32,026 nt of DNA from NCBI GenBank assembly GCA_945862135.1, contig CAMAYE010000013.1, forward strand, positions 1-32,026. Direction: 5' to 3'. Made by a program: the position numbers and the translations under genes. The notes beneath the pieces were generated by a model. It made no database searches and was not told the origin of the DNA. It saw nothing but the letters and a program-made list of their open reading frames with translations. Source of the stretch: Bordetella parapertussis. GTDB taxonomy: Bacteria; Pseudomonadota; Gammaproteobacteria; Burkholderiales; SG8-41. Positions 1 through 17,930 of the stretch are shown in pieces (the first letter of the stretch is position 1; every line of letters starts with the position of its first letter).

Positions 1-980
1 CCCATCTGTACCAGTGTGGTGTCGATGCGTCCCTGAAGGTGGGTGCCGATCCCGGGCGCCATGGGGACATTGGTCCCGGTTACAAAGGAGTCATCCTGCA
101 AAGCTTTGCCGTAAGCGACCTTGAAATTGCCGTTGGTCGTCGGGGTGAATGCATAGCTGCCGGACAAATGCAGTTGATGTGAATGATTGTCGGGGGGCAG
201 GGCGATCGGGTTAAACGTCGACAGCCCGCCGGCGCCGCCGATGAAATTCAGTCCGTTGTTTTGATTGTTGTACATCGAGCCGTAATAACCACCGGTCATT
301 TGAAGGCTCTTGCCGGTGTAGCTCAAGGTCGCATCCAGTAACCGGATCGTGGAGTCGATGGGCTCGGGTGCAAATTCAAAAAGGCCGGCACCGCCTGTAG
401 AACCGCGCCCCCAAAGTCGTGCACCTTCCTTGGTTTCGTTACGAAAATCGACTTTGGCGCTCCATGCGTCGGAGAAATGCTTGTTGAAACCCATCCCGAT
501 TCGGTCGCGCCGGGTCTGCAGATCAAATGTTCCGGTGCGCCTGGCCGTGGAAGGTATGGTCAGGGTGTTGCCGCCTATACCGCCCACACCGGTGAAGGCC
601 TGGTAGGGTTCATTACGGGGAATCTGGTTGAACTCAAGGTAATAGCCCCAGTTGCCCTGTATTTCGTGTTCAAAGCGCAGCTCCCGGGTGTCTAGACCGA
701 GATTGCGGCCCTTCAGACGCAGCCAGCGTCCATTGCTGTCATCCCGGGAAACCAGATCCAGATCGAGAAGGCCATAAGCACCGGTATCGTTCAGTCCGTT
801 GTATTGGCCAAAGCGGCGAGCTTCGCCGTTCATGTAGCCGAGTCCGAAACTCACCGAACTCTGGGGCTTGGTCAATGCAGCGACCTCGGCGTCTTCGTTT
901 GCTGCTGCGGTGCCGAAGCAGGCCAGCAGCGCTGCGGCGATCGCGGTGGGCATCAGGACATTACGTTTTTGCGGTGTCAT
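1..980 (-). CDS. mtoB: MtrB/PioB-family outer-membrane porin of an extracellular electron-transfer complex (mtoB-like, 3'-truncated by window)
   Basis: About 326 residues are visible from the ATG at 978-980; the C-terminus lies beyond the window. The N-terminus is a Sec signal peptide (MTPQKRNVLMP... to about residue 27). The rest is barrel sequence with alternating aromatic and polar residues and the family-like segments VSFGLGYMNGEARRFGQYNG, LRLKGRNLGLDTRELRFE and YLEFNQIPRNEPYQ. Family members form the barrel that sheathes the decahaem MtrA/MtoA protein and carries electrons across the outer membrane. An AGGAGA ribosome site sits just upstream and the decahaem gene ends 22 bp before the start. 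The visible part lacks the N-terminal CxxC motif described for MtrB of metal-reducing Gammaproteobacteria, which fits the metal-oxidiser (MtoB/PioB) branch. The family call is firm; the direction of electron flow is inferred. Confidence 0.9.
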   Translation of the reverse strand, partial: MTPQKRNVLMPTAIAAALLACFGTAAANEDAEVAALTKPQSSVSFGLGYMNGEARRFGQYNGLNDTGAYGLLDLDLVSRDDSNGRWLRLKGRNLGLDTRELRFEHEIQGNWGYYLEFNQIPRNEPYQAFTGVGGIGGNTLTIPSTARRTGTFDLQTRRDRIGMGFNKHFSDAWSAKVDFRNETKEGARLWGRGSTGGAGLFEFAPEPIDSTIRLLDATLSYTGKSLQMTGGYYGSMYNNQNNGLNFIGGAGGLSTFNPIALPPDNHSHQLHLSGSYAFTPTTNGNFKVAYGKALQDDSFVTGTNVPMAPGIGTHLQGRIDTTLVQM

Positions 981-1002
981 GATCGTCTCCTGTTGGCGCG
1001 AA

Positions 1003-2013
1003 TCAACGCCGGAACGTACGCTCGTTGGAAATATTTGCCGGGTTATTGGTACCGTGAATCTGTGTGTGGCAGTTCAGGCAGCCGCGTGCCATTGCATTGG
1101 CGCCGGTCGAGGTGCCCGTCAGTGATGCAGGGGTTCCCTGGTGCGAAGATGCCTCGTGGCATTGCTGGCACAGGAAGGGCGAGCGTGCCTTCAGGAGATT
1201 GGGCGTGGTGGTGCCGTGCGGATTGTGGCAAATCGAGCAGTCTTCCTGCACAGGCTGGTGGGTGCGCACGAACGGTCCGCGCTTCTCCATGTGGCAGGTG
1301 TAACAGGTGTCATTGACGTTGTCGCGAACCAGGTTCTTAGGTCCTGCTGATCCGTGAGCGTTATGGCAATCCGAACAGGTGACTTTGCCTTCGGGAATCG
1401 GATGGCGTGATGGGCGCAAGATCTGTGCGCGCTGCTCCTTGTGGCAGGTGTAGCAGACTTGTGCCTGTTCGCGTTTGTCACGCACCTTGTCGTGGGTGGT
1501 GTGGACCTGATGGCATGAGGTGCAGGCGACATCGCGGCTGGCATGCATGCTGGTCTGCCAGTGCGTGCGTTTGTCGCCCTGGTGGCAGGACAGGCAGGCA
1601 CCGTTACGATCGGCGACAGGGGTATCGGTTTTTTTGCCGGCAACACCGAAGTAAACATCCACTGGCTGCGCGTCCTGCCGCGCCGGCGGCAGGCCATAGG
1701 TAATCGTGGGTTTCGGCCGTTCCTTGGTGTTGGGCGGACGGTTGATATGGGTTTCGCTGGCGCCGTGGCAGCTGATGCAGGTCGGTGTGCGTTTATCGGC
1801 GACCGTGCCGTGTTTCGTCCTGCCGATCGCGAGTACCGGATACTCCTCATCAACACCGTGGCAGCGTGTGCAGACCGCATCGCCTTTGAGCGCAAGATCC
1901 TTGCGCGGCGCTTTTGCAGAGTCCTGGGCCAGAGCCGGCTGTGCCATGGCGAACAGGCATAGCGCTGTGGTTATGCCGCGCATCAGGACGAGAATCGATT
2001 CGGTTGAAATCAT
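1003..2013 (-). CDS. mtoA: Periplasmic decahaem c-type cytochrome, MtrA/MtoA (DmsE) family
   Basis: This 336-residue protein has ten CxxCH haem-binding motifs, in order CTRCH, CISCH, CLSCH, CTSCH, CYTCH, CSDCH, CYTCH, CSICH, CQQCH and CLNCH. Both the haem count and the length match MtrA/MtoA/DmsE proteins. A signal peptide ends at about residue 29 (AQPALAQ). The ATG at 2013 is favoured because AAGGGAG lies eight bases upstream; an in-frame Met at residue 11 is the alternative. Family members are ten-haem wires that pass electrons through an MtrB-type porin between the periplasm and the cell exterior. The gene lies 39 bp after the CymA/NapC-like gene and 22 bp before the porin gene, as in Mto clusters of iron-oxidising Betaproteobacteria. 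Whether it oxidises Fe(II) or reduces an outside acceptor cannot be read from sequence. Confidence 0.95.
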   Translation of the reverse strand: MISTESILVLMRGITTALCLFAMAQPALAQDSAKAPRKDLALKGDAVCTRCHGVDEEYPVLAIGRTKHGTVADKRTPTCISCHGASETHINRPPNTKERPKPTITYGLPPARQDAQPVDVYFGVAGKKTDTPVADRNGACLSCHQGDKRTHWQTSMHASRDVACTSCHQVHTTHDKVRDKREQAQVCYTCHKEQRAQILRPSRHPIPEGKVTCSDCHNAHGSAGPKNLVRDNVNDTCYTCHMEKRGPFVRTHQPVQEDCSICHNPHGTTTPNLLKARSPFLCQQCHEASSHQGTPASLTGTSTGANAMARGCLNCHTQIHGTNNPANISNERTFRR

Positions 2014-2052
2014 CTGGTTTTCTCCCTTGATCCTGATGTGGGGCTCTGTGTT

Positions 2053-2664
2053 TTATTTCTTTTCGAGCTTCGCGGCCTTCAAATCCTGTGGCGTGGGGCC
2101 GTCAGGTTCCTTGTGCGCAATACCGTAGTGGCATTCAATGCATGTCATTTTTTCCCGGTCCGCCTTGGCGTGGCGGTTGCGGGCTTTTTCGGATTGCAGT
2201 TCGCTGCTCATGGATTCGCGCTTGTGGCAGTTGCGGCATTCCAGTGAATCGGTTTCCAGCATGCGATCCCAGACGCGGTGGGCCAGCATGGCGCGATGTT
2301 TCTCGAATTTTTCCGGGGTGTCGATCACACCTTGGAAGTGGCCGATGAGTTCAAAGGTGGCGCGCATCTTGCGCAGCACCAGCGGAATCGGTTCGCGCGG
2401 TACGTGGCAGTCGGAGCAGATGACATGTACGCCAGTGCGGTTGACGTCGTGGATCGTACCTTTGAACTCGGCATAGACGTTGTCTTTCATTTCGTGACAA
2501 CCGATGCAGAAGTCCTGAGTGTTGGTATAAGCCATTGCGGCCGCGCCAACAGTCATCAGCAAGCCAGCACCGACCAGGGCGATTACCAGCACGCCGGCGG
2601 TCAGTGTTACCCGGGAGCATGTTCGGCACCTGTTCTGCAGGTTATTCCACCATTTGCCGATCAT
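2053..2664 (-). CDS. mtoC: NapC/NirT-family tetrahaem cytochrome, CymA/MtoC-like quinone-linked membrane anchor
   Basis: This 203-residue protein has one N-terminal membrane helix (about residues 20-45) and four CxxCH motifs (CIGCH, CSDCH, CRNCH, CIECH), the standard NapC/NirT pattern. Such proteins sit in the inner membrane with haems facing the periplasm and exchange electrons between the quinone pool and periplasmic cytochromes. GGGAGG lies seven bases before the ATG. The position between a monohaem cytochrome gene and the decahaem gene matches the CymA homologue (MtoC/ImoA) of Sideroxydans-type clusters. In an Fe(II) oxidation pathway it would pass electrons into quinone; in a reductive pathway the reverse. 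NapC or NirT proper is unlikely because no nitrate or nitrite reductase gene is adjacent. Confidence 0.92.
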   Translation of the reverse strand: MIGKWWNNLQNRCRTCSRVTLTAGVLVIALVGAGLLMTVGAAAMAYTNTQDFCIGCHEMKDNVYAEFKGTIHDVNRTGVHVICSDCHVPREPIPLVLRKMRATFELIGHFQGVIDTPEKFEKHRAMLAHRVWDRMLETDSLECRNCHKRESMSSELQSEKARNRHAKADREKMTCIECHYGIAHKEPDGPTPQDLKAAKLEKK

Positions 2665-2707
2665 GTTCTGCCTCCCGGTTATTTATTGTTGTAATTGTTG
2701 GCAGGGC

Positions 2708-3043
2708 TCAGCGGCTCAGGATCCAGTCCACGGCGTTGCGGACTGCCTTGGCATCCTTGGTTTTCACCGCATCGTGTGTTTCTTCGACGCTATCAACCTT
2801 GATTTTTGGATTGGTGGTGATGTGTTTGGTGACCTTGTCGACTCCGTCGGCCTTTCCTTTGTACTTTGCGGCGGTTTCCTTGAAGGCCGGCCCGTCTTTT
2901 TTCTTGTCGACGGCGTGGCATTTGAAACAGCCACTTTTCTTGAGCAGGGCTTCCGCCGCGCTGGCGTCAACGTCTGCTGCATGAGCGGCACCAACGGTCA
3001 CTGCAAAGCTGGCGGCGGCGATAAGCAGATTTCGGGTGATCAT
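2708..3043 (-). CDS. mtoD: Small periplasmic monohaem cytochrome c, MtoD-like
   Basis: The 111-residue precursor has a Sec signal peptide (residues 1-22, ending AAHA) and one haem motif, CFKCH (39-43), in a class I cytochrome c context (EALLKKSGCFKCHAV, then GPAFKETAAKYKGK). The start at 3043 is chosen because the signal peptide begins there and GGAGAA lies upstream; the frame stays open further upstream but encodes no export signal. It is the first gene of the mto run, 43 bp before mtoC. A soluble shuttle between the decahaem complex and terminal enzymes is the expected role. The mature chain has no methionine, so the usual Met axial ligand is missing; His74 or His90 are candidate replacements. 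Confidence 0.88.
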   Translation of the reverse strand: MITRNLLIAAASFAVTVGAAHAADVDASAAEALLKKSGCFKCHAVDKKKDGPAFKETAAKYKGKADGVDKVTKHITTNPKIKVDSVEETHDAVKTKDAKAVRNAVDWILSR

Positions 3044-3254: not shown

Positions 3255-3268
3255 TTGATTTACATCAA
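3255..3268. promoter_or_regulatory. Perfect FNR/DNR-type operator in the mto-regulator divergent region
   Basis: The site reads TTGAT-TTAC-ATCAA, an exact match to the FNR-family consensus TTGAT-N4-ATCAA. Its centre is at 3261.5. On the minus strand a TAATCT hexamer at 3226-3231 lies within one base of where the -10 of a class II FNR-activated promoter would fall (start near 3220, box centred at -41.5), so the spacing favours activation of the mto genes. No comparable -10 is seen at the matching position towards the regulator gene. Confidence 0.8.
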
Positions 3269-3308: not shown

Positions 3309-4118
3309 ATGGCGCCATGCTGTAGGGGATTGTCTTCGCGCCTCCCTTTGATCTTCGTCAATGAGCCGCAACGACGTGCAGAGATACTGAAGTCTCGAAA
3401 TATTCTTCAAAGAGGCTCGTCTGTGTGTGCTGCCGTAGCAGAGGTTTTACAGGCGTTTGCGAGCGTCAGTCTGTTTGCAGGTCTTGATCCATTGGCCTGC
3501 AAACGATTGGCCGAAGGGGCGGAACTCCGGGAGTTTTCTGGTGGTGACGTGATTTGCCGCGAAGGGGATCCCGGCACCGGTCTTCATCTTGTGACAAAGG
3601 GGCAGGTGAAATTGCTGCTCCAGGCGGGTAACGGGCACGAAAAAGTGTTTGATCTGATCGGCAAGGGCGCCTGTTTCGGTGAACCATCGTTGTACACCGA
3701 TCAACCCCATCTCGTGACCGCAGAGGCAATTGTCGACACGCAATTGCTGCATGTTCCCCGCGCTGATCTGCTCAAGGCGCTTCGAGATACACCAGAACTG
3801 GCTTTGCGGGTGATCAAGGGGCTGGCGTCGAGGATTTACCGGCGCACCCATGATCTGAAGAGTTACATGCTGATGTCAGGCACCCAGCGGGTTATCTGTT
3901 ACCTGTTGCATGAGGTGCCTTTTGAGGCGGAGGGGCCCGGGGAGGTTTCCGTGACACTGCCGGTGCGCAAAGGGCTTATTGCGTCGCGGCTGAATCTGAC
4001 CCAAGAGCACTTCTCTCGCATTCTCCATGAGCTCGCCGTCGCCACTCTGATCAAGGTGGAGGGGCAGCGGGTGCATATCCGCGATCTGTCGCGGCTGCGT
4101 GCAGCCGCGATGTCGTGA
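3309..4118 (+). CDS. Crp/Fnr-family transcriptional regulator with FNR-type DNA recognition helix
   Basis: The protein has an N-terminal cyclic-nucleotide-binding-type beta-roll (about residues 55-150), a dimer helix and a C-terminal winged helix-turn-helix. The recognition helix (about 221-241) contains TQEHFSRILHEL, giving E233, S236 and R237, the E-xx-SR pattern that reads TTGAT half-sites in FNR. A perfect such site lies 41 bp upstream. Cysteines are scattered (4, 5, 40, 64, 83, 122, 197) without the N-terminal Fe-S cluster pattern of FNR, so a DNR/NNR-like or other ligand-type sensor is more likely. The start is uncertain. The ATG at 3309 gives 269 residues with a weak ribosome site; an in-frame GTG at 3423, seven bases after AAAGAGG, gives 231 residues, closer to family length and perhaps the true start. 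It is divergent from mtoD and probably regulates it. Confidence 0.85.
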   Translation: MAPCCRGLSSRLPLIFVNEPQRRAEILKSRNILQRGSSVCAAVAEVLQAFASVSLFAGLDPLACKRLAEGAELREFSGGDVICREGDPGTGLHLVTKGQVKLLLQAGNGHEKVFDLIGKGACFGEPSLYTDQPHLVTAEAIVDTQLLHVPRADLLKALRDTPELALRVIKGLASRIYRRTHDLKSYMLMSGTQRVICYLLHEVPFEAEGPGEVSVTLPVRKGLIASRLNLTQEHFSRILHELAVATLIKVEGQRVHIRDLSRLRAAAMS

Positions 4119-7489: not shown

Positions 7490-7834
7490 TTATTTTACGG
7501 GATCAATGCTTGTGACAATGTAAGCTCCGCCGCTCTGTTCTGCGGTGAATTTTATTTTGTCCCCGGTTTTGGCCCGGTCAAGCAATGCCGGATCCTTGAC
7601 CTGGAACACCATGGTCATCGGCGGCATGTTGAGATTGTTGATCGGACCGTGACGGATCGTGATTTTCTGTGTGTCGCGATCGACTTTGCGGATTTCGCCA
7701 TCGCTCAGTGCGGACACGGCAGCGGGTGCGGACTGAGGTGAAGCATGTGACGAGTGGTCGGCAGCATTTTGCTGGGCAAATGCAGGCGCTGTCATTGCAG
7801 AGACAATCAGTGCCAGTGTCGGTGCGTATTTCAT
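7490..7834 (-). CDS. cusF: CusF-like periplasmic copper-binding protein
   Basis: This 114-residue protein has a signal peptide (residues 1-20, APAFA), a His-containing linker (DHSSHAS) and a CusF OB-fold domain. The copper motif is IRHGPINNLNMPPMTMVF, giving H62, M70, M73 and M75. Spacing equals that of E. coli CusF (H36, W44, M47, M49), but the copper-capping Trp is Met here. CusF proteins carry periplasmic Cu(I) or Ag(I) to efflux or oxidase partners. It is the last gene of the copper run, 23 bp after the CopG-like gene. No CusA-type pump is adjacent, so delivery to the oxidase and TolC-like partners of this operon, or simple buffering, is inferred. Confidence 0.88.
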   Translation of the reverse strand: MKYAPTLALIVSAMTAPAFAQQNAADHSSHASPQSAPAAVSALSDGEIRKVDRDTQKITIRHGPINNLNMPPMTMVFQVKDPALLDRAKTGDKIKFTAEQSGGAYIVTSIDPVK

Positions 7835-7857
7835 CGTGGTCTCCTTTACTTGGATAA

Positions 7858-8304
7858 TCAGCGCCCGTAGCGGGCATAAACGGAATGGCGACCGCTCTTG
7901 TCCACCAGCAGCACGTCGTACGGTTGGGGTGTGGCGGATTCCATGCCGGGTGATCCCTGCGGCATTCCCGGCACGGCAAGTCCGGTGGCCACCGGTTTTT
8001 CAGCCAGAAGGCGTTTGATTTCACGTGCGGGCACATGGCCTTCGATGGCATAACCTTCAATCACCGCGGTATGGCAGCCGCCGAGTTTTTCAGGAATGCC
8101 GAGGCGTTTGCGCATCACCGCAGTGTCTTCGACTGAAACCGGCTTCACACGGAAGCCGTTGGCGCGCAGATGATCCATCCACGCGCCGCAGCAGCCTCAG
8201 GTCGGGTTCAGGTACACCGTCGCTAACGTGGGCTCCGCCGTCATGGCAGTGCCCGATAGCATCATCGCGGCCATTGCAGTCAGGATTTTGCGTCGGTCGT
8301 TCAT
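7858..8304 (-). CDS. copG: CopG-like DUF411 copper-resistance protein with in-frame UGA, candidate selenoprotein
   Basis: Read from the ATG at 8302-8304 through a TGA at 8197-8199, this gives a complete 148-residue DUF411 protein: signal peptide (1-23), TVYLNPT-U-GCCGAWMDHL, then LGGCHTAVIEGYAIEGHVP and GLAVPGMPQGSPGME. DUF411/CopG proteins carry CxCC, a thioredoxin-fold copper site; here the TGA is exactly the first Cys, so the motif becomes U36-G-C38-C39, with C77 as the further cysteine. Nine bases after the UGA begins a 12-bp stem with a GAU loop, matching bacterial SECIS geometry. AAAGGTG precedes the ATG, which lies 4 bp after the cupredoxin stop. No other lesion is visible. The alternative is a TGC-to-TGA nonsense mutation or sequencing error; translation starting at Met43 would lack both signal peptide and metal motif. 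Family call is near certain; selenocysteine is inferred. Confidence 0.8.
8161..8187 (-). promoter_or_regulatory. Candidate bacterial SECIS hairpin in the CopG-like gene
   Basis: On the minus strand GGCGCGUGGAUG (8187-8176) pairs fully with CAUCUGCGCGCC (8172-8161), 12 bp including two G-U pairs, closing the triloop GAU (8175-8173). The stem starts 9 nt after the UGA and the loop begins after 21 nt. The published general model of bacterial SECIS elements asks for a stem-loop directly after the UGA, an apical loop roughly 16-37 nt away and a G among the first loop bases; all are met. The segment is also coding and GC-rich, so chance pairing must be excluded. Confidence 0.65.
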
Positions 8305-8308
8305 GTCA

Positions 8309-8812
8309 TCACCTTTGCGTTACGTTGATCTTGCCGACCATGCCGGCTTCGAAATGACCCGGCAGCAGGCAGCCGAAGTGGAATTCGCCGCCTTTGCTGA
8401 ACTGCCAGAAAATGGTTTCAGTTTTTTCGGGTGGCACATGCGCCATGTAAGGCTCGTCATGTTCCATGTTCGGGAATTTTTTCATCAGTTCGGCGTGTTC
8501 CATCAGTTCGGGGAGTGTGCCCAGCACGAACTCGTGCATGGTCTTGCCGGAATTGGTGACAATGAACTTTACGGTTTCGCCCTGCTTGATGGTCAGCGTC
8601 GCCGGCGTGAAACGCATTTTGTCGCTCATGTCGACCTTGACCGTTCGCGCGACTTTTTCCGGATCGCCAGCTTTGCCGAATGATTTTTCTTCGTTGCTGA
8701 TCGTGCCGGGCTTGGCGGATTTGGGGGCGTGCGCGTCGCCATGCGCCCAAGCCGGGACGGCGATCAGGCACGCGGTAATACAGGCGACGCTGAGTACTCG
8801 GGCTGCATTCAT
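8309..8812 (-). CDS. Periplasmic cupredoxin (plastocyanin/azurin-like copper protein)
   Basis: The 167-residue precursor has a signal peptide (1-23, VPAWA) and one cupredoxin domain. Type 1 copper ligands are visible as H93 (in KTMHEF) and C148, H153 and M158 in FHFGCLLPGHFEAGM. Between strands lies a Met- and His-rich insertion (about 100-127: ELMEHAELMKKFPNMEHDE) that may bind extra copper. The start at 8812 is chosen because the signal peptide begins there; an in-frame ATG at 8836 would only add eight residues, and upstream extension runs into the oxidase gene. It sits between the multicopper oxidase and CopG-like genes, so it likely carries copper or electrons for them in the periplasm. 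Clean family call; partner unknown. Confidence 0.9.
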   Translation of the reverse strand: MNAARVLSVACITACLIAVPAWAHGDAHAPKSAKPGTISNEEKSFGKAGDPEKVARTVKVDMSDKMRFTPATLTIKQGETVKFIVTNSGKTMHEFVLGTLPELMEHAELMKKFPNMEHDEPYMAHVPPEKTETIFWQFSKGGEFHFGCLLPGHFEAGMVGKINVTQR

Positions 8813-8846
8813 ATTGGCTTCAATAAATATCAACATAATCAATAGC

Positions 8847-10223
8847 TTAGTGTTTGTGTCCGGACGCCGGTTTGCGAGCCTGCAGTAGGTGTTCGCCCGC
8901 GTCCGGCACAGCGGTCGCTGCGCTGGTCGCCGCCGGCGCTGCACCGGTCCACTCGCGTGCAACCGTGCCCGGCGGATGCTTGAACCAGCCCGGGTCTTTG
9001 TAGTCGTTGCGCGCGAGGCCATCACGCACTTTGACCACGCTGAACATGCCGCCCATCTCCAGCGGCCCGAAGGGGCCGCGGCCGGTCATCATCGGCAGCG
9101 TGTTGTCGGGCAGCGGCATTTCCATTTCACCCATGTCCGCCATGCCGCGTTCACTCATCACCATGTAATCGGGCACCAGCTTCATGATTTTTTCGGCGAC
9201 GCCGCGATGGTCGACACCGATCATCGTCGGCACGCCGTGCCCCATGGCGTTCATCGTGTGGTGCGACTTGTGGCAATGGATTGCCCAGTCGCCCGGCACG
9301 TCCGCGGTGAACTCGAAGGCGCGCATCTGACCGACTGCGACGTCCACCGTCACTTCCGGCCAGCGCGCGGACTTCGGCACCCAGCCGCCGTCAGTGCAGG
9401 TGACCTCAAAGTCGTAACCGTGCATGTGCACCGGATGATTGGTCATCGTCAGGTTGCCGAAGCGGACACGCACTTTGTCGCCGGTGCGCACCACAAACGG
9501 ATCAATGCCGGGAAACGCCCTTGAGTTCCAGCACCACAGGTTGAAGTCGAGCATAGTGTTGACGTTCGGAGTTGCTGCGCCGGGTTTGACGTCGAAGGCG
9601 TTGAGCAGGAACACAAAGTCACGATCGACCTTCATGAAATTCGGATTTTTCGGGTGCACCACAAAAAATCCCATCATGCCCATCGCCATCTGCGTCATTT
9701 CGTCGGCGTGAGGGTGATACATGAAGGTGCCGGATTTCTTCATTTCGAATTCATAGACGAAAGTTTTTCCGACCGGAATCTGCGGCTGGGTAAGTCCACC
9801 GACACCATCCATGCCATTGGGCAGCAGGATGCCGTGCCAGTGCATGGTGGTGTGCTCCGGCAGCTTGTTGGTGACGAAGATTCGCAGCTTGTCGCCTTCG
9901 ACGCATTCGATGGTCGGGCCCGGCGACTGGCCGTTGTAACCCCACAGATTGGCGGTCATGCCGGGGGCGATCTGACGGCGCACCGGTTCAGCGATCAGGT
10001 GAAATTCCTTCCAGCCCTTGTTCATGCGCCAGGGCAGGGTCCAGCCGTTCACTGTCACGACCGGGTTGTAAGGGCGACCGCTGGCTGGCATCAATGGCGG
10101 CTGCGTGTCGGGTTTTGATTGCATCGGCGCTTCGGGTACTGCGCCCTGCGCGGCGCGGCTGACCGTCGCGGCGCCAAGCAGTGCGGCGCCGGAGGCGCGG
10201 AGGAAATTGCGGCGGTTATTCAT
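8847..10223 (-). CDS. Tat-exported multicopper oxidase, apparently two-domain, with Met-rich tail
   Basis: This 458-residue protein starts with a twin-arginine signal (NNRRNFLRASGAALLG). Copper motifs are MHWHG (127-131), YHPH (169-172), HPVHMHG (263-269) and HCHKSHHTMNAM (316-327), the last giving the type 1 ligands C317, H322 and M327. Only about 90 residues separate the first and second motif pairs, so it looks like a two-domain enzyme with type 1 copper in domain 2. A tail (about 354-395) is rich in Met (MADMGEMEMPLP). Such enzymes oxidise Cu(I), Fe(II) or phenols using O2. In this operon, Cu(I) oxidation is the likely job; ferroxidase activity is possible given the Mto cluster. The cupredoxin gene follows after 34 bp. 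Confidence 0.9.
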   Translation of the reverse strand: MNNRRNFLRASGAALLGAATVSRAAQGAVPEAPMQSKPDTQPPLMPASGRPYNPVVTVNGWTLPWRMNKGWKEFHLIAEPVRRQIAPGMTANLWGYNGQSPGPTIECVEGDKLRIFVTNKLPEHTTMHWHGILLPNGMDGVGGLTQPQIPVGKTFVYEFEMKKSGTFMYHPHADEMTQMAMGMMGFFVVHPKNPNFMKVDRDFVFLLNAFDVKPGAATPNVNTMLDFNLWCWNSRAFPGIDPFVVRTGDKVRVRFGNLTMTNHPVHMHGYDFEVTCTDGGWVPKSARWPEVTVDVAVGQMRAFEFTADVPGDWAIHCHKSHHTMNAMGHGVPTMIGVDHRGVAEKIMKLVPDYMVMSERGMADMGEMEMPLPDNTLPMMTGRGPFGPLEMGGMFSVVKVRDGLARNDYKDPGWFKHPPGTVAREWTGAAPAATSAATAVPDAGEHLLQARKPASGHKH

Positions 10224-10238
10224 GTCTTGATCCGTTCC

Positions 10239-11651
10239 TTAGTGGCCGGCTTCCGCGGCTGGCGCGGCGGCGCGCAGGCTGCCGCCCGATGCCGCAATGG
10301 CGCCCGGCGACTTGCCGTTGATCGTGAACTGCAGGGTGGTGTCGGCAAGCCAGAAGTCGCGCTGCGCTTCGATGGCGGTGATGACCGCGCTGACCTGCTG
10401 GCGGGATTCGGCGAGCAGTTCAAACACACTCATCAGCATGCCGTTGTAGCGCAGCAGCGTTTCTTCGCTGATGCGCGCCCGCAACGGCACTATTTCGTCG
10501 CGGTAGTGCCTGGCCAGATCGTAGCTGCTGCGCCAGGCGCCGTAGGCTTCTCGCACTTCCGAGCGGGCACGTATGGCGAGGTCTGCTGCTTGGTTTACTG
10601 CCTGCCGGTGGGTGTTTTCGGCCCGCGCCAGTTTTGCCGAGCCGGAATCGAAGATCGGCAGCCGCAGTTCGATTTCGTAACCGGTTTTGCGCGGTTGGCC
10701 GCTTTCGCTGTTGCGGATGTATTTCGCTTCGAAAACGCTGAAATACCCGGTGGCCTTGGTCAGTCCCAGCGAGTTGGCGATGTTTTCGGCATGACGTGCG
10801 GCTTCCTGCACATCAAGCCTCTGCTGCATGGCTTGTCTTTCGATGTCGGTCATGTCGCGCAGCGATGGCGGAAGATCTGGCAGGCGTTCCGGCAGCTTGA
10901 ACGCAATGTCGTTGCCCCACAGTCCGAGAAGCCGGGTCAGCCGCTCGCGTTCTGCCAGCGCCTGCTGACGGGCGCGTGCCAGTTGTGCGGCGGCATCGGC
11001 ATAAAATGCCTGCTCCCTCGCTTGATCGAGTTTGCTGAAATTTCCGGCTTTGACCATGCGCCGCGCCAGTTCGGATGCCGCCTCGGCGGCGCTTTTGACC
11101 TGTTCGGCATAAGTCGCTGATTGTTGCGCAGCGACTGCGCTGATCCAGGCGCGTCGGGTGTCAGCAGCGACCTGCATGATGCTGGCCGCCATGCGGCCCT
11201 GCGCGAGTTCGAAACGTTCCTGTTCCAGTTGCGTTCGTAGCGGCATCGTCAGCAAACCCAGAAGGTCGAAAATGAAGGCCCGTTCATATTCGACATCATC
11301 CGCGCGATGCGTACGGCCAAACGAGAAGCCCGGATTGCGCAGGCGGCCGGCTTGCACCAGGTCGGATTCGGCAATGCCCAGCTCGGCGTATGCGGATTGC
11401 AGTCCGCGGTTGTTGAGCAGTGCAATCTGTACCGCGTTGTCGGCGGTCAGCGGTTGCGCCAGCAGGGCACGTACCTGATCGTCGGCTCGCTTGGCGTCAT
11501 CTTGATTTTTGATCCATGGCACCTGCTGTGTGATGCCGCGTGCGCTCAGGGCGTCATTGACCTTGCGCGTACCGCCTTCTTCGGAAAAGGTGGCGCAGCC
11601 GCCGAGCAGGAACACGACGAAGGCGGCCATGAGCGATTTGACGTTATTCAT
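10239..11651 (-). CDS. TolC-family outer-membrane efflux lipoprotein
   Basis: This 470-residue protein has a lipoprotein signal with lipobox LLGGC (15-19) and then the TolC/OEP pattern of two repeats rich in long amphipathic helices, for example NRGLQSAYAELGIAESDLVQA, followed by a second half ending in LLRYNGMLMSVFELLAESRQQ. Such proteins are trimeric exit ducts for RND or ABC efflux. Its ATG overlaps the stop of the small upstream gene (11648-11651). The operon encodes no pump or adaptor; the nearest are the RND pair at 13574-17846 on the other strand, which in turn lacks its own duct. The duct may instead carry copper-related cargo, as in CusC- and CopB-like systems. The C-terminal Ala-rich tail is low-complexity. 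Confidence 0.9.
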   Translation of the reverse strand: MNNVKSLMAAFVVFLLGGCATFSEEGGTRKVNDALSARGITQQVPWIKNQDDAKRADDQVRALLAQPLTADNAVQIALLNNRGLQSAYAELGIAESDLVQAGRLRNPGFSFGRTHRADDVEYERAFIFDLLGLLTMPLRTQLEQERFELAQGRMAASIMQVAADTRRAWISAVAAQQSATYAEQVKSAAEAASELARRMVKAGNFSKLDQAREQAFYADAAAQLARARQQALAERERLTRLLGLWGNDIAFKLPERLPDLPPSLRDMTDIERQAMQQRLDVQEAARHAENIANSLGLTKATGYFSVFEAKYIRNSESGQPRKTGYEIELRLPIFDSGSAKLARAENTHRQAVNQAADLAIRARSEVREAYGAWRSSYDLARHYRDEIVPLRARISEETLLRYNGMLMSVFELLAESRQQVSAVITAIEAQRDFWLADTTLQFTINGKSPGAIAASGGSLRAAAPAAEAGH

Positions 11652-11944
11652 TTTGCCGCTCCCGGAGCAGACGTCGATGCCGGTTTGACGCCATGTCCGG
11701 CATGGGCGCCGCCGAACATGCCCAGATGGCCGCCGACGCGGGCGACTTCGTCGTTGACTTCGCGCCAGGGCGCGAGTGCATCATCACGCAAGGGCTGATA
11801 GCCGGCAAAAGCCGAGACATAGGCTGGCGCCGGTACCTTTACCTGCGGATCGGTCGGGTCGGTTTGGATGGATTGTTGCGCCGCCGCTGGCGGCAACCAG
11901 AATGCCGCACAAGCGCAGCACAGGACTGCGAGTTTCGACTGCAT
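11648..11944 (-). CDS. Small exported protein of copper/efflux operons, function unknown
   Basis: From the ATG at 11944 this gives 98 residues with a signal peptide (QSKLAVLCCACAAFWLPPAAA) and a short mature part containing YVSAFAGYQPLRDDALAPWR, EVNDEVARVGGHLGMFGG and HAGHGVKP. An upstream Met (11980) would put extra residues ahead of the signal and is rejected. Similar short proteins are familiar beside TolC genes of betaproteobacterial metal operons, but no function is known to me. It is translationally coupled to the TolC-like gene by an ATGA overlap. The GGHLGMFGGAHAGHG stretch has His and Met residues that could bind metal; that is speculation. Confidence 0.75.
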   Translation of the reverse strand: MQSKLAVLCCACAAFWLPPAAAQQSIQTDPTDPQVKVPAPAYVSAFAGYQPLRDDALAPWREVNDEVARVGGHLGMFGGAHAGHGVKPASTSAPGAAK

Positions 11945-12033
11945 AGTGATCCCTATTGCATCAAACGGGCAAAACAGCACCCAAGGCGGCGCAATCGCGT
12001 GATGCGCGATACGCCAATGCAGACTTCAGGGGA

Positions 12034-12405
12034 TCAGGCCCGCGGCGGGCGCTGGGGCAGTTCGGGAATGAAAAGCGTGTTCAGCAGTGCTATGCGAGGG
12101 GTTGCGGCAAGCGGTGCTTCCGGCGGCTGGGGTGTTGTCGCGGATGCGGTGCCGGTAAATACATGATGACAGCAGGCATGGCCACTGGCTTCGTTGGCCG
12201 GTTCATGGTCATGCAACTGCTGATCGACAGTGGAATGGTGGTCAGTAGCCTGCGCGTGGTGACCGGTATGGGCGGCGTGGTGTTGTGTCTGTTGCGCGAC
12301 GACATGTTTGTCGCCGCAGGGCATCAGCGGCGCATAGGCCGCAATGCCCTGCAAGGGCAGGGCCAGCATCAGCAGCCAGGCGGCCAAGAGTCGAACGCTT
12401 TTCAT
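12034..12405 (-). CDS. His-rich exported protein, putative periplasmic metal binder
   Basis: From Met at 12405 this gives 123 residues with an N-terminal hydrophobic segment (VRLLAAWLLMLALPLQGIAA) that is either a signal peptide or an anchor. The mature part is very His-rich (QHHAAHTGHHAQATDHHS, LHDHEPANEASGHACCHHVF), with a Cys pair CC beside two His. Composition suggests binding of copper, zinc or nickel. It resembles DUF2946-type small proteins found near copper genes, but I do not recognise a specific family. It lies upstream of the TolC-oxidase run (89 bp gap) and downstream of the CsoR-like repressor on the same strand, so it may be the first gene of the copper operon. Confidence 0.7.
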   Translation of the reverse strand: MKSVRLLAAWLLMLALPLQGIAAYAPLMPCGDKHVVAQQTQHHAAHTGHHAQATDHHSTVDQQLHDHEPANEASGHACCHHVFTGTASATTPQPPEAPLAATPRIALLNTLFIPELPQRPPRA

Positions 12406-12475
12406 AGGGTGGAATTCTAGGTGCAATCCCCGATACCGGCAATGCAATAAGGACCATTATGCCGGCCAAAGGTTC

Positions 12476-12751
12476 CTAACCGAACTTGGCGAGGAGCGCG
12501 GCGGCGTGTTTGACGCGTTCTTCGGAGGCTCTGGCACTGCCTTTTTTTTCAGGATTGGTCTGGATGGCGCATGCCAGCACGCTGAAAAAGGCCTTGTCCA
12601 GCGCGCGGCGCGCCGCCGACAGCTGTTGGGTGACCTTTTCGCAGTCCGCGCCATCGTCAATCATTCCCTGGATGCCGCGCACCTGGCCTTCGATGCGTTT
12701 CAGGCGCAAGATCAGTTCGCGACGGTGTTGCTGGTCTTTGATGATGGCCAT
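12476..12751 (-). CDS. CsoR/RcnR/FrmR-family metal or thiol-responsive repressor
   Basis: This 91-residue all-helical protein shows the family signature RLKRIEGQVRGIQGMI followed by C37 (GADCEKV) and SAARRALDKAF. Aligned to Mycobacterium CsoR (C36, H61, C65), C37 is kept, but H61 and C65 are Ala62 and Asn66, while a cysteine appears at 61 (VLACAIQ). It therefore lacks the classical Cu(I) site and also the CstR spacing; a two-cysteine sensor with a 24-residue spacing is left. Such a pair could respond to reactive sulfur, thiol oxidants or metal. It is divergent from DUF2892 and thioredoxin 2 genes, and two matching palindromes lie in the shared promoter region. Confidence 0.88.
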   Translation of the reverse strand: MAIIKDQQHRRELILRLKRIEGQVRGIQGMIDDGADCEKVTQQLSAARRALDKAFFSVLACAIQTNPEKKGSARASEERVKHAAALLAKFG

Positions 12752-12780
12752 TGTGCGGCTCCGAATTAAGTGCGGGCAGC

Positions 12781-12796
12781 ATACTCTATGGGGTAT
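12781..12796. promoter_or_regulatory. CsoR-type operator, copy 1 (proximal to the repressor gene)
   Basis: ATACTCTATGGGGTAT is an inverted repeat with arms ATACTCT and GGGGTAT (two mismatches), 29 bp upstream of the repressor ATG. G/C-tract palindromes flanked by ATAC/GTAT are typical of CsoR-family operators, so autoregulation is likely. Confidence 0.6.
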
Positions 12797-12828
12797 ATGA
12801 CTGCAACGGTTGAAACACTTGAATACTG

Positions 12829-12844
12829 ATACCCCTGGGAGTAT
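12829..12844. promoter_or_regulatory. CsoR-type operator, copy 2 (proximal to DUF2892)
   Basis: ATACCCCTGGGAGTAT is a 16-bp palindrome with one mismatch between arms, sharing ATAC/GTAT ends with copy 1. Its centre is 48 bp from that of copy 1 and it ends 50 bp before the DUF2892 ATG, so it is placed to control the plus-strand genes. Confidence 0.65.
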
Positions 12845-12894
12845 ATTGTCAGTGTTGGTTCCGCAGTGGGCGGGACGTTACCGCGGAGGGTTCC

Positions 12895-13113
12895 ATGACT
12901 ACTGAGCGTATTGTGCGCATCGTTGCCGGACTGTTTGTGCTGCTGTCGCTGGGCCTGGGCGTCAAAGGCAGTCCATTGTTTGTAAATGAGAATTTCCTGT
13001 GGTTCACTGCCTTTGTCGGTGTGAACCTGTTTCAGAGCGGTTTTACGCGCTTGTGCCCGCTGGAAGCCATCCTGCGCCGGCTCGGCGTCAAATCAGGCGG
13101 CGCCTGCGCCTGA
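12895..13113 (+). CDS. DUF2892-family small inner-membrane protein
   Basis: This 72-residue protein has two membrane helices (about residues 8-24 and 32-50) and the DUF2892 pattern MTTERIVRIVAGLFVLLSLGLG ... FVGVNLFQSGFTRLCPLEAIL. The TRLCPLE motif with one conserved Cys is characteristic; the same domain is fused to rhodanese in YgaP-type proteins, where it is linked to sulfur metabolism. A GGAGG ribosome site precedes the ATG. It is followed after 9 bp by thioredoxin 2 and is divergent from the CsoR-like repressor. A role in sulfur-transfer or sulfide handling is an inference from these partners. Confidence 0.85.
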   Translation: MTTERIVRIVAGLFVLLSLGLGVKGSPLFVNENFLWFTAFVGVNLFQSGFTRLCPLEAILRRLGVKSGGACA

Positions 13114-13122
13114 GGGGGCATC

Positions 13123-13572
13123 ATGGAATCACAAACCAACGTGGAGTACATGCATGTCGGTTGCGGGCGTTGCGGCACTGAAAACCGTGTCGCAGCAAAA
13201 CGTCTTGGCGAAGGGCCCAAATGCGGCGAATGCGGAGCCCCCTTGCTCCCCGCCGCGTCGGTTGAACTCAGCGATACGTCTTACGATGCGGTGATTGCCC
13301 GAACCGGACTGCCGGTGCTTGTAGATTTCTGGGCGCCGTGGTGCGGCCCGTGCAAGATGATGGGGCCGCAGTTTGAAGTTGCGGCGCGCGAACTGCACAA
13401 GCAGGCGCTGCTGGCCAAGGTGAACACTGATGAGGCGCAGGCCGTGGCGGCACGCGCGGGCATACGCTCGATACCCACGCTGGTGCTGTTCCGCGACGGA
13501 AAGGAAGTGGCGCGGACATCCGGCGCGATGGATGTACGTGGACTGATCCGCTGGTACAAGGAGCAATCGTAA
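13123..13572 (+). CDS. trxC: Thioredoxin 2 (zinc-ribbon thioredoxin)
   Basis: This 149-residue protein has an N-terminal zinc-ribbon with two CxxC pairs (CGRC and CGEC, residues 14-17 and 34-37) followed by a thioredoxin domain with the active site WAPWCGPCKMMGP and the cis-Pro region SIPTLVLF. That architecture defines TrxC, a cytoplasmic disulfide reductase active in oxidative stress. AGGGGG sits five bases before the ATG at 13123; an in-frame ATG at 13150 would give a start closer to E. coli TrxC but has a cramped ribosome site. It shares a promoter region with the CsoR-like repressor and precedes the RND adaptor by one base, so all these genes may be co-transcribed. Confidence 0.93.
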   Translation: MESQTNVEYMHVGCGRCGTENRVAAKRLGEGPKCGECGAPLLPAASVELSDTSYDAVIARTGLPVLVDFWAPWCGPCKMMGPQFEVAARELHKQALLAKVNTDEAQAVAARAGIRSIPTLVLFRDGKEVARTSGAMDVRGLIRWYKEQS

Positions 13573-13573
13573 A

Positions 13574-14623
13574 TTGAATGCCCTGCGAATCGCGTCCGCA
13601 GTTCTCGCGCTGGCCCTTGTTGCAGCCTGTGGCAGCGAGCCGGCGCCGGCGGTGCCGGCAGTGACGCAACTGCCAGCTGCAGTCGTTGAGTCGCGCGAAG
13701 TTGATCTGGATTATTCCGCGGAAGCCGTTGTCGAGGCCGTGCGCCAGTCGACGGTCGCGGCCCAGATTGCCGGCCGCGTGGTTGAACTCCGGTTTGATGT
13801 CGGCGATGCGGTGAAAAAAGGCGAAGTGATTGTGCGGATTGACGAGCGCGCTGCGACACAGGCCGTGGCGGCCAGTGCCGCCCAGGTGCAGGAAGCGCAG
13901 GCGTCATTGGCCAATTCCCGGGCGCAGTACGAGCGGTCCAAACAACTGGCTGCCCAGAAATTCATCAGTGCTGCAGGACTGGAAAAGGCGGAGGCCGAAT
14001 ACAAGGCCGCACAGGCCCGCGTCTCGTCGCTGGTGGCCGGCGCCGGACAGGCCAGCACCGAACGCAGTTTCGCGACCATCGTCGCGCCGTACAGTGGCGT
14101 GGTCTCGGCGCGCCATGTCGAGGTTGGTGAAATGGCCACGCCGGGCAAACCGCTGATGACCGGTTTTGATCCTTCATCGCTGCGTGTGGTGGCCAACCTG
14201 CCGCAGGCGCAACTGGCCGCCATCCAGGCAGTGGGCAAGGCCTGGATCGAGATTCCCGCAATGGGCAAACGCATCGAGGCCAAACAGATCACGGTGGTGC
14301 CGTCGGCCGATCCGCGTACGCATACCACGCGCGTGCGGCTGGAATTGCCCGCGGATGTCAGCGGGATCTACCCCGGCGTGTTTGCGCGTGCACATTTTTC
14401 TACCGGCCGCGTGACGCGGCTGCTGGTGCCGCGCAGTGCGGTGTTCCAGCGCAGCGAAGTGACCGCGGTTTACGTGCTGGATGAGCAGGGGCAGCCGCGC
14501 TTGCGCCAGGTTCGGCTGGGCGCTGCCGGCGACGCCAATGGTGTGGAGGTGCTGTCGGGCCTCAGACCCGGCGAGCGTGTGGCACTGGAGCCGGTGAAGG
14601 CCGGCATCACCCCGGTCCGCTGA
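13574..14623 (+). CDS. RND efflux periplasmic adaptor lipoprotein (membrane-fusion protein)
   Basis: This protein starts at a TTG, with AAGGAG about ten bases upstream, and has a lipobox (LVAAC, 15-19). It then shows the HlyD/MFP order: barrel-sandwich half (TVAAQIAGRVVELRFDVGDAVKKGE), a coiled-coil hairpin (about 95-155, with SRAQYERSKQLAAQKFISAAGLE), the second lipoyl half (ATIVAPYSGVVSARHVEVGEM) and a beta-barrel. Length, 349 residues, is normal for an RND adaptor. The start abuts the trxC stop. It precedes the RND pump gene by 16 bp and would link it to an outer-membrane duct, perhaps the TolC-like protein at 10239-11651. Substrate unknown. Confidence 0.9.
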   Translation: MNALRIASAVLALALVAACGSEPAPAVPAVTQLPAAVVESREVDLDYSAEAVVEAVRQSTVAAQIAGRVVELRFDVGDAVKKGEVIVRIDERAATQAVAASAAQVQEAQASLANSRAQYERSKQLAAQKFISAAGLEKAEAEYKAAQARVSSLVAGAGQASTERSFATIVAPYSGVVSARHVEVGEMATPGKPLMTGFDPSSLRVVANLPQAQLAAIQAVGKAWIEIPAMGKRIEAKQITVVPSADPRTHTTRVRLELPADVSGIYPGVFARAHFSTGRVTRLLVPRSAVFQRSEVTAVYVLDEQGQPRLRQVRLGAAGDANGVEVLSGLRPGERVALEPVKAGITPVR

Positions 14624-14639
14624 CCATGGGCCGCAGCTA

Positions 14640-17600
14640 ATGGGCATTTCCGGGCGCATCGCCCGCTTTTTCCAGGACTCACAGATCACGCCGCTGCTGG
14701 CGCTGGTGGCGTTGCTGCTCGGTTTGTTTGCGGTGGCGGTGACCCCGCGCGAGGAGGAACCGCAGATCGACGTGACAATGGCCAATGTGCTGATCCCGTT
14801 TCCCGGCGCATCGGCCAAAGACGTTGAAAGCCTTGTTGCCACGCCCGCCGAACAGGTGCTGAGCCAGATGACGGGCGTCGATCACGTGTATTCGATTTCG
14901 CGCAGCGGCATGGCCATTGTCACGGTGCAGTTCAAGGTCGGCGTGCCGCGCATAGACGCGCTGGTGCTGCTGCACGACACCATACAGTCCAATCGGGATT
15001 GGGTATCGGCGACGCTCGGCGTCGGTGAACCCGTGATCAAACCCAAGGGCATCGATGACGTTCCGGTGGTGACGCTGACGTTATGGAGTGCCGATGCCGC
15101 GCACGGCGCTTATGAACTCGAGCGCGTGGCACACGCCGCTGAAGTCGAACTGAAGCGCGTGCCGGGCACGCGTGAAGTGCAGACGCTGGGCGGACCGGGA
15201 CGAGCCGTGGTGGTGCGGCTGGATGCCGACCGCCTCGCGTCGTATGGGCTGTCGGCGCTGGATTTGCGCAATGCGCTGCAAGCTTCCAATTCTGCGATGC
15301 CGACCGGGAAATTGACTCGCGACAATCGAGACATTGTGGTCGAGACCGGCGAATTTTTTGCGTCCGCCGCGGATGTCAAAAAGGTAGTCGTCGGCACCTT
15401 CGAAAGCCGGCCGGTTTATCTGGCGGATATTGCCGAAGTGAACGATGGCCCGGACCAGCCGGCGCGTTATGTCTGGACCGGCAGCGGACCGGCAGGTGCG
15501 AAAAAAGGCATCACTGCGCAGGGCGAGCAGCCGGCGGTGACGATACAGATTACCAAGAAGACCGGTGAAAACGCTGTGGAGGTTGCGGAGCGCGTTATGC
15601 AGCGCGCGCAGGCGTTGCGCGGCACGGTGATTCCGGACAATGTGCAGATGACGGTGACGCGCGATTATGGCGCGACCGCCAATGACAAGGCGATGAAGCT
15701 GATCCAGAAGCTGATCTTTGCCACGCTGTCGGTGGTGGTGCTGGTGTTTCTGACGCTGGGCCGGCGCGAAGCACTGATCGTCGGCGTCGCGGTGATGCTG
15801 ACTCTGGCGGCCACGCTGTTTGCCTCGTGGGCCTGGGGCTTCACGCTGAACCGGGTGTCGCTGTTTGCGCTGATATTTTCGATCGGCATCCTTGTCGACG
15901 ATGCCATTGTGGTCGTCGAAAACATCCACCGCCGCATGGTGTTGGACCGAAAGCCGCTGGCCGAGGTGATTCCATTGGCCGTCGATGAAGTCGGCGGGCC
16001 CACGATCCTCGCCACTTTCACGGTGATCGCTGCGCTGTTGCCGATGGCTTTTGTCACCGGGTTGATGGGGCCGTACATGAGTCCGATCCCGATCAACGCC
16101 AGCATGGGCATGCTGATTTCGCTCGCGATTGCCTTTGTGCTGACACCCTGGCTGGCGCTGAAACTGCTTGGCAAGGTCGCCGCCCACCATGATGCCGGCG
16201 GTGGCTGGCTGGAGCGTTTGTTCCAGCGCCTGCTGGGGCCGTTCATTGCAGCCACGAATGCGCCACGTAACCGGCGCTGGCTGCTGTATGTGGTGATTGC
16301 ACTGATCGTGGGTTCAGTGGGCCTGGCTGCAGTCAAGCTGGTGGTGCTCAAGATGCTGCCCTTCGACAACAAGTCGGAATTCCAGGTTGTTGTCGACATG
16401 CCGGCGGGCACGCCGGTGGAAATCACCGCTGCCGCATTGCGTGACATGGGCGCGTACCTCGCGACCGTGCCGGAAGTGACCGACTATCAGGTTTATGCCG
16501 GCACCGCCGCGCCAATCAATTTCAACGGCCTGGTGCGGCAATACTATCTGCGTGCATCGTCTGAACTCGGCGACATCCAGGTCAATCTGGTGGATAAACA
16601 GGCGCGCGACCGCAAGAGCCACGAGATTGCGCAGGCGGTCCGTCCCAAACTCGAAACCATCGCTGCAAAGTGGGATGCCAAGGTCAAGGTGGTCGAAGTG
16701 CCGCCGGGTCCACCGGTGCTGTCGCCACTGGTGGCCGAGGTGTACGGGCCGGACGAGGCCGGACGCATCCGCGTCGCCAAGAAAATGCGCGAAGCATTCG
16801 CTGCGACGCCCGACATTGTCGGCATTGATGATTCGGTTGAAGACCCGGCACCTCGCATCGTGCTGAAGGTTGATCAGGCCAAGTCAGCACTCGCCGGTGT
16901 CAGTCGTCGTGACATTGTTGAAACCATGCGTATCGGTCTCGCTGGCGCCGACATCACGCCGCTGCACGACGGGCAGTCCAAATATGAGGTCCCGGTGCGG
17001 CTGTCGATGCCGGATGCGCGCAAAGGTGATTTGCCGGAAATGCTCAAGCTCACGGTGCGCGGCCCGGGTGGCGCGCTGATCCCGCTATCAGAGCTGGTCA
17101 CAGTCACCCGCGATGAACGCGATCGCGCGATTTATCACAAGGACCTGCTGCCGGTGGTCTATGTCATCGGCGACCAGGCCGGCCGCGTTGACAGTCCGCT
17201 CTACGGCATGTTTGCCGCGCGCGGCAAGGTGGCGGGGCAACCGCTGGACGAAGGCGGCGTGCTCGGTGAATATTTCATCCGCCAGCCGGACGATCCGTAC
17301 CGCGAATATTCAATCAAGTGGGACGGCGAATGGAAGGTGACTTATGAAACCTTCCGCGACATGGGCATTGCCTATGCGGTCGGCTTGATCCTGATTTATC
17401 TGCTCGTGGTGGCGCAGTTCCGTTCGTATCTTGCGCCGTTGATCATCATGGCGCCGATTCCGCTGACGGTGATCGGTGTGATGCCGGGTCATGCGTTGTT
17501 CGGCGCCAATTTCACTGCAACATCGATGATCGGCATGATCGCGCTGGCCGGCATCATCGTGCGCAATTCCATCCTGCTCGTCGATTTCATCAACCTCAAG

Positions 17601-17846
17601 GTAGCCGAAGGCGTGCCGCTGCGCGACGCGGTGATGCAATCGGCCGCGGCGCGGGCAAAACCCATCGTGCTGACCGGCTTTGCGGCCATGCTCGGCGCAA
17701 TGTTTATTCTCGATGACCCGATATTCAACGGGCTCGCGATTGCGCTGATATTCGGCATTCTGGTATCGACGCTGCTGACGCTGGTTGTAATTCCGGTTTT
17801 GTACTATGTCAGTTATCGCAAAAAGCATGAGTTGCGTGCAACTTGA
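14640..17846 (+). CDS. RND-family efflux pump, inner-membrane permease (HAE-type)
   Basis: The 1068-residue protein has the RND layout: N-terminal helix, a large periplasmic loop, a bundle of helices, a second loop and the C-terminal helices. TM4 carries SIGILVDDAIVVVENIHRRM with the paired aspartates of proton-driven drug exporters. The CusA-type heavy-metal signature is not seen, so this is an HAE-type pump rather than a copper pump. The opening MGISGRIARFFQDSQITPLL and VTPREEEPQI are typical of the broad efflux group. The gene follows its adaptor by 16 bp and ends 84 bp before the cytochrome bd gene. The start codon lies in TAATG directly behind a four-codon mini-ORF (14626-14640). Substrate unknown. 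Confidence 0.92.
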   Translation: MGISGRIARFFQDSQITPLLALVALLLGLFAVAVTPREEEPQIDVTMANVLIPFPGASAKDVESLVATPAEQVLSQMTGVDHVYSISRSGMAIVTVQFKVGVPRIDALVLLHDTIQSNRDWVSATLGVGEPVIKPKGIDDVPVVTLTLWSADAAHGAYELERVAHAAEVELKRVPGTREVQTLGGPGRAVVVRLDADRLASYGLSALDLRNALQASNSAMPTGKLTRDNRDIVVETGEFFASAADVKKVVVGTFESRPVYLADIAEVNDGPDQPARYVWTGSGPAGAKKGITAQGEQPAVTIQITKKTGENAVEVAERVMQRAQALRGTVIPDNVQMTVTRDYGATANDKAMKLIQKLIFATLSVVVLVFLTLGRREALIVGVAVMLTLAATLFASWAWGFTLNRVSLFALIFSIGILVDDAIVVVENIHRRMVLDRKPLAEVIPLAVDEVGGPTILATFTVIAALLPMAFVTGLMGPYMSPIPINASMGMLISLAIAFVLTPWLALKLLGKVAAHHDAGGGWLERLFQRLLGPFIAATNAPRNRRWLLYVVIALIVGSVGLAAVKLVVLKMLPFDNKSEFQVVVDMPAGTPVEITAAALRDMGAYLATVPEVTDYQVYAGTAAPINFNGLVRQYYLRASSELGDIQVNLVDKQARDRKSHEIAQAVRPKLETIAAKWDAKVKVVEVPPGPPVLSPLVAEVYGPDEAGRIRVAKKMREAFAATPDIVGIDDSVEDPAPRIVLKVDQAKSALAGVSRRDIVETMRIGLAGADITPLHDGQSKYEVPVRLSMPDARKGDLPEMLKLTVRGPGGALIPLSELVTVTRDERDRAIYHKDLLPVVYVIGDQAGRVDSPLYGMFAARGKVAGQPLDEGGVLGEYFIRQPDDPYREYSIKWDGEWKVTYETFRDMGIAYAVGLILIYLLVVAQFRSYLAPLIIMAPIPLTVIGVMPGHALFGANFTATSMIGMIALAGIIVRNSILLVDFINLKVAEGVPLRDAVMQSAAARAKPIVLTGFAAMLGAMFILDDPIFNGLAIALIFGILVSTLLTLVVIPVLYYVSYRKKHELRAT

Positions 17847-17870
17847 CCTGTGAATTATTGTCGTTATTTA
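17843..17870 (+). promoter_or_regulatory. Possible sigma-70 promoter for cytochrome bd genes
   Basis: TTGACC (17843-17848) and TATTTA (17865-17870) are separated by 16 bases and lie about 60 bp before the oxidase ATG, overlapping the 3' end of the RND pump gene. The match is moderate; transcription could also continue from the pump gene. Confidence 0.35.
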
Positions 17871-17930
17871 GGCACGGAGCGATATTTACAATAGAATTTT
17901 TGCTGCGATTCAATTTTTTTGGAAAACTCC

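Follow-up and report, generated by a model that had tools for sequence, protein, structure and literature searches.

The closest described system is the Mto cluster of Sideroxydans lithotrophicus ES-1. It comprises mtoD (Slit_2498), mtoA (Slit_2497), mtoB (Slit_2496) and cymA/imoA (Slit_2495) (PMC4412085), as well as pmcA (Slit_2494) (PMC13390432), and MtrC is missing from the cluster. In the solved structure of Sideroxydans MtoD (4XXL), the haem ligands are His47 and His95 (PMC4412085). A CXXCHXM motif at haem I has been reported to be present in ImoA but absent in CymA; menaquinol oxidation by ImoA is possible in Shewanella (PMC13390432). Dechloromonas aromatica is a nitrate-reducing host of mto, and in the mtoABCD type of D. 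aromatica and Gallionella ES-2 a nonahaem MtoC serves as the partner in the inner membrane (PMC5566968). MtoAB and MtrAB are reversible, and the direction of electron flow is fixed by no sequence feature (PMC8805035).

The stretch of DNA analysed here (the window, 32,026 nucleotides) is the start of contig C13, from base 1 onward, in a betaproteobacterial MAG of 3.52 Mb, 310 contigs and 88% completeness. Four genes lie next to each other on the minus strand. The first, mtoD (2708–3043), encodes an exported monohaem class I cytochrome c of 111 aa with a single CXXCH (PF00034). It is followed by an imoA/cymA-like gene in the mtoC position (2053–2664), whose product is an inner-membrane NapC/NirT tetrahaem quinone–cytochrome oxidoreductase of 203 aa with four CXXCH motifs (PF03264, 201 bits). 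The third gene, mtoA (1003–2013), encodes the decahaem cytochrome that fills the porin (336 aa, ten CXXCH; TIGR03508, 277 bits; cut-off 192). The last, mtoB (3–980), covers the first 326 residues of an outer-membrane beta-barrel porin of the MtrB/PioB family (PF11854, 219 bits; cut-off 23; profile positions 1–283 of 635). The gaps between the genes are 43, 39 and 22 bases. Thus, the profile scores and CXXCH counts confirm the four families named in the original prediction, and their adjacency on one strand with short gaps also holds. All four proteins are above the curated Pfam cut-offs; the family matches of the operon far exceed such cut-offs and hence are not chance matches.

The mtoB gene is incomplete because the window begins at the first base of its contig, and MtoB stays under the TIGR03509 cut-off because half of the porin is missing. 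The remainder of the gene was not found in a search across the same 88%-complete MAG. No relative of MtoB with a solved structure was found by sequence, and the only DNA relatives on plasmids were short NapC/NirT matches. Elsewhere in the window, the region 7490–20221 contains a copper-handling cluster, which encodes a CusF-like protein, a cupredoxin, a multicopper oxidase, an outer-membrane efflux protein and an RND pump, and, after it, cytochrome bd oxidase genes (17919–20221). At 30441–31576, a DUF6036/AbiEii-like nucleotidyltransferase gene overlaps a small helix-turn-helix-like gene, a possible toxin–antitoxin pair.

The best solved relative of the window MtoD is 4XXL (phmmer E 1.2e-24). 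Counted along the alignment, His95 of 4XXL coincides with the histidine in the EETH motif of the window protein, and the proximal His is aligned too; by homology, a bis-His haem is predicted. The haem I motif of the ImoA-like protein is CIGCHEM, that is, CXXCHXM.

An MtoA match was found in 4 of the 21 genomes of the genus, including the genome of the window itself. Two of these, G011 and G018, contain complete operons (L005 and L006, respectively), whose MtoB proteins are 678 and 687 residues long. Like the window, both have the gene order D-C-A-B (mtoD-imoA-mtoA-mtoB), a divergent Crp/Fnr gene and FNR boxes, and the identity of their MtoA to that of the window is 82–84%. In addition, L006 shares the upstream neighbours of the window, namely the Crp/Fnr gene and the genes for an outer-membrane protein, a PRPP synthase and a phosphorylase. 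The fourth genus member (G002:C140; L154, L240) encodes an MtoAB pair of another kind, which is accompanied by neither mtoD nor imoA and adjoined by a divergent Crp/Fnr gene. When the MtoB proteins are compared, the identity of the window protein is 72% with L005 and 48% with L006 (window 3–980 versus L006:8968–11031); within one genus, MtoB diverges far more than the neighbouring genes do. The DNA identity drops at the mtoA–mtoB junction, and L006 is placed differently in the trees of the two proteins. Possibly, the porin was replaced, or it diversified fast.

The order D-C-A-B is common to L005–L009, L014, L021, L022, L024, L026, L040, L050 and L058 and is shared with uncultured Betaproteobacteria. 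The original prediction had equated it with the order in Sideroxydans; however, the locus tags of ES-1 read mtoD-mtoA-mtoB-cymA/imoA-pmcA, so the two orders differ, and the second monohaem gene was not seen beside the window operon. Gene order is a variable trait and does not define Mto biochemically. At other loci, such as L060 and L028, a protein of 650–690 aa with eight haems and a cytochrome b561-like part adjoins the operon.

On the 3′ side of mtoB, both L005 and L006 carry a Rieske gene with a Tat signal, sodC and another conserved gene; a multihaem MtrC is absent there. The Tat-Rieske protein is SoxL2-like by TIGR03171, although under the cut-off of this profile, and has no Pfam match. 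Its gene (L005:11098–11811, L006:11170–11883) represents a genus-wide Tat-exported Rieske-like protein (SoxL2/SoxF/AioB-like) encoded next to sodC. This gene was considered as a new member of the operon and rejected, as it is present in 15 of the 21 genomes, the majority without mtoA. Elsewhere in the genus, the slot upstream of it is occupied by a gene for a large regulator-like protein or by cytochrome-maturation-like genes. Since the Rieske gene mostly occurs without mtoA and its upstream slot holds other genes, the mto operon acts like an accessory module whose site varies. G020 has no mtoA; there, a gene at L228:179–1921, upstream of the Rieske gene, encodes a protein with seven haems and a cytochrome b561-like region.

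The MtoA tree was built from 80 rows, one of them the S. baltica MtrA sequence of the 6r2q alignment. Rows were called Shewanella-type by gene context and clustering with S. baltica MtrA, and the label DmsA denotes, from its context, a protein of roughly 800 residues with a Tat signal that adjoins the pair. The window MtoA groups with L005 and L006 (100/99) inside an MtoD-associated clade (100/100), and a 98/96 split separates it from S. baltica MtrA and the rows located beside Shewanella-type MtrC or DmsA. The same two halves are separated in the MtoB tree. These trees, in which Gallionella L080 and Dechloromonas L081 stand in for verified Mto and which contain neither verified ES-1 MtoA nor PioA, place the operon with MtoAB and away from Shewanella MtrCAB and DmsEF, in agreement with the Mto-type identity proposed originally. 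MtrC-bearing operons (L062, L197) also nest within the MtoA clade of the window, where gene contexts are mixed.

A CxxC near the MtrB N-terminus was looked for in the window protein and is absent, as had been noticed in the original prediction. It is present in the MtrB partners of the gammaproteobacterial MtrCAB and DmsEF rows, whereas none of the rows L005–L084 has it, including L062, where MtrB is encoded beside an MtrC-domain protein. The further claim that its absence favours the oxidation of Fe(II) or another donor does not survive this last case, and CxxC was rejected as a marker of electron direction. Because it is missing from all these rows, MtrC-adjacent L062 included, and present in the gammaproteobacterial ones, its absence signals the lineage and says nothing about the direction. 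Together with the distal His of MtoD and both trees, the missing CxxC supports the assignment of the operon to the Mto type. The title of TIGR03508, the family matched by MtoA, is DmsE, which would fit a DmsEF-type or Shewanella-type MtrCAB conduit taken for Mto. The chance of this is very slim given the 98/96 split from the DmsA-linked and Shewanella MtrC-linked rows, the absent CxxC, and the presence of neither DmsA nor MtrC in the syntenic relatives; such an identity is refuted as far as L005 and L006 represent the missing end of the operon. An MtrC gene directly after mtoB was searched for in these two relatives, as the contig of the window ends inside mtoB, and was not found. With the TIGR03507 profile, the MtrC/OmcA family had no match in the window's own genome (88% complete) or in six relatives.

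An FNR-type box, TTGATTTACATCAA, with an exact TTGAT-N4-ATCAA pattern, lies upstream of mtoD (3255–3268). The divergent gene on the plus strand (3309–4118) encodes a Crp/Fnr-family regulator (PF00027, PF13545), the same neighbour as in L005 and L006. Judging from L006, its true start is probably near 3421, and a second FNR-like box, TTGATCTTCGTCAA (3348–3361), is located upstream of this probable start; L005 and L006 also have a second box. Near the L006 operon, there is an Fnr-family gene (PRK11161, 278 bits against a cut-off of 228). Boxes equivalent to TTGATTTACATCAA precede mtoD in L005, L006, L008 and L009. Of 79 regions upstream of mto, 18 contain the TTGA-N6-TCAA pattern, and of 188 other intergenic regions of the promoter type, 10 do (Fisher p 6e-5); in this count, the window is one of the loci, and related loci are not independent. 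Putative FNR-type boxes are thus conserved in the relatives and enriched before mto operons. Along with the narG and RuBisCO results below, this is new here; among the papers searched, none links MtoA with FNR.

Fe(II) oxidation is usually linked to autotrophy. In the 21 genomes of the genus, no RuBisCO was detected, and a Sideroxydans-like lithoautotrophic use of the operon is therefore unlikely. The narG gene exceeds its cut-off in 14 of these genomes, and the genome of the window has a narG fragment (1032 bits) at a contig edge. All 21 lack a menD match above the cut-off and thus show no sign of the classical route to menaquinone; we attribute the weaker matches to other members of that enzyme superfamily.

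These features also bear on the opposite direction, in which respiratory electrons would pass outward to Fe(III), humics or an electrode once oxygen and nitrate are exhausted, with a surface-exposed MtoA replacing MtrC. FNR-type boxes and nitrate reductase suggest an anaerobic programme, RuBisCO is undetected, and ImoA is able to oxidise menaquinol in Shewanella (PMC13390432). However, no MtrC family protein was found in the genome, menD above the cut-off is absent, haem I is of the ImoA-like CXXCHXM rather than the CymA-like kind, and the periplasmic carrier is of the MtoD type. Export is a rather unlikely reading, albeit the strongest of the alternatives. Less likely still is a redox-balancing, reversible conduit with no dedicated donor and a direction set by conditions: the mixed gene contexts within the MtoA clade and the demonstrated reversibility of homologues (PMC8805035) fit it, but no specific sequence feature favours two-way use.

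We consider the operon to be a Mto-type conduit for electron uptake that is controlled by low oxygen and delivers electrons to the quinones of a nitrate respirer lacking the Calvin cycle, with a probability of roughly 60%. This reading is supported by the high scores of the four families, the distal His of MtoD, the CXXCHXM at haem I, the MtoA and MtoB trees, the missing MtrC/OmcA match, the syntenic operons ending with MtoB, the lack of menD above the cut-off, the FNR boxes and narG. In this conduit, MtoB would thread decahaem MtoA across the outer membrane, and the extracellular donor might be Fe(II), an Fe(II) mineral or reduced humic matter. Electrons would pass from MtoAB to the periplasmic bis-His MtoD, then to the tetrahaem ImoA-like protein in the inner membrane and on into the quinone pool (ubiquinone), with nitrate or traces of oxygen as the sink. 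An FNR-type regulator probably turns the operon on at low oxygen. As RuBisCO is undetectable in the genus, the accessory module would supplement other growth. Several observations stand against uptake: MtrC operons occur in the same clade, RuBisCO is missing, the window's own operon is incomplete, and homologues of the conduit are reversible (PMC8805035). FNR control is compatible with either direction and would suit export to an extracellular acceptor, too.

Whether Fe(II) oxidation by nitrate-reducing heterotrophs is enzymatic or due to nitrite chemistry alone is a long-standing question. The compact Mto operon, preceded by FNR boxes and belonging to a genus that respires nitrate and has no detectable RuBisCO, offers a genetic handle on enzymatic versus nitrite-driven Fe(II) oxidation; the presence of mtoAB alone is no proof of lithoautotrophic iron oxidation. 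Tentatively, the whole D-C-A-B branch could be an FNR-controlled anaerobic module, through which nitrate respirers that lack RuBisCO gain additional electrons from minerals or Fe(II), which would amount to mixotrophic nitrate-dependent iron oxidation by way of a defined enzymatic conduit; we regard this extension as possible, though somewhat doubtful.

When compared with the known systems, the operon resembles the ES-1 Mto in its monohaem MtoD, for which bis-His ligation is predicted, decahaem MtoA, porin MtoB and NapC-type tetrahaem ImoA/CymA, and differs from it in gene order and in belonging to a genus without detectable RuBisCO. With the mtoABCD of D. aromatica and Gallionella ES-2 it has MtoA, MtoB and MtoD in common, whereas its inner-membrane partner is the four-haem NapC type instead of the nonahaem MtoC. 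The MtrA/MtrB architecture is shared with Shewanella MtrCAB (MtoA matches 6r2q chain A with E 1.3e-59); unlike that system, the window has no MtrC/OmcA match in its genome and no MtrB CxxC, and falls in a separate clade. DmsEF is set apart by the trees, and no DmsA-type gene adjoins the L005 and L006 operons. The operon is thus real, well placed and of a known kind; its gene order is a variant, and its regulatory and metabolic context departs from the Sideroxydans model.
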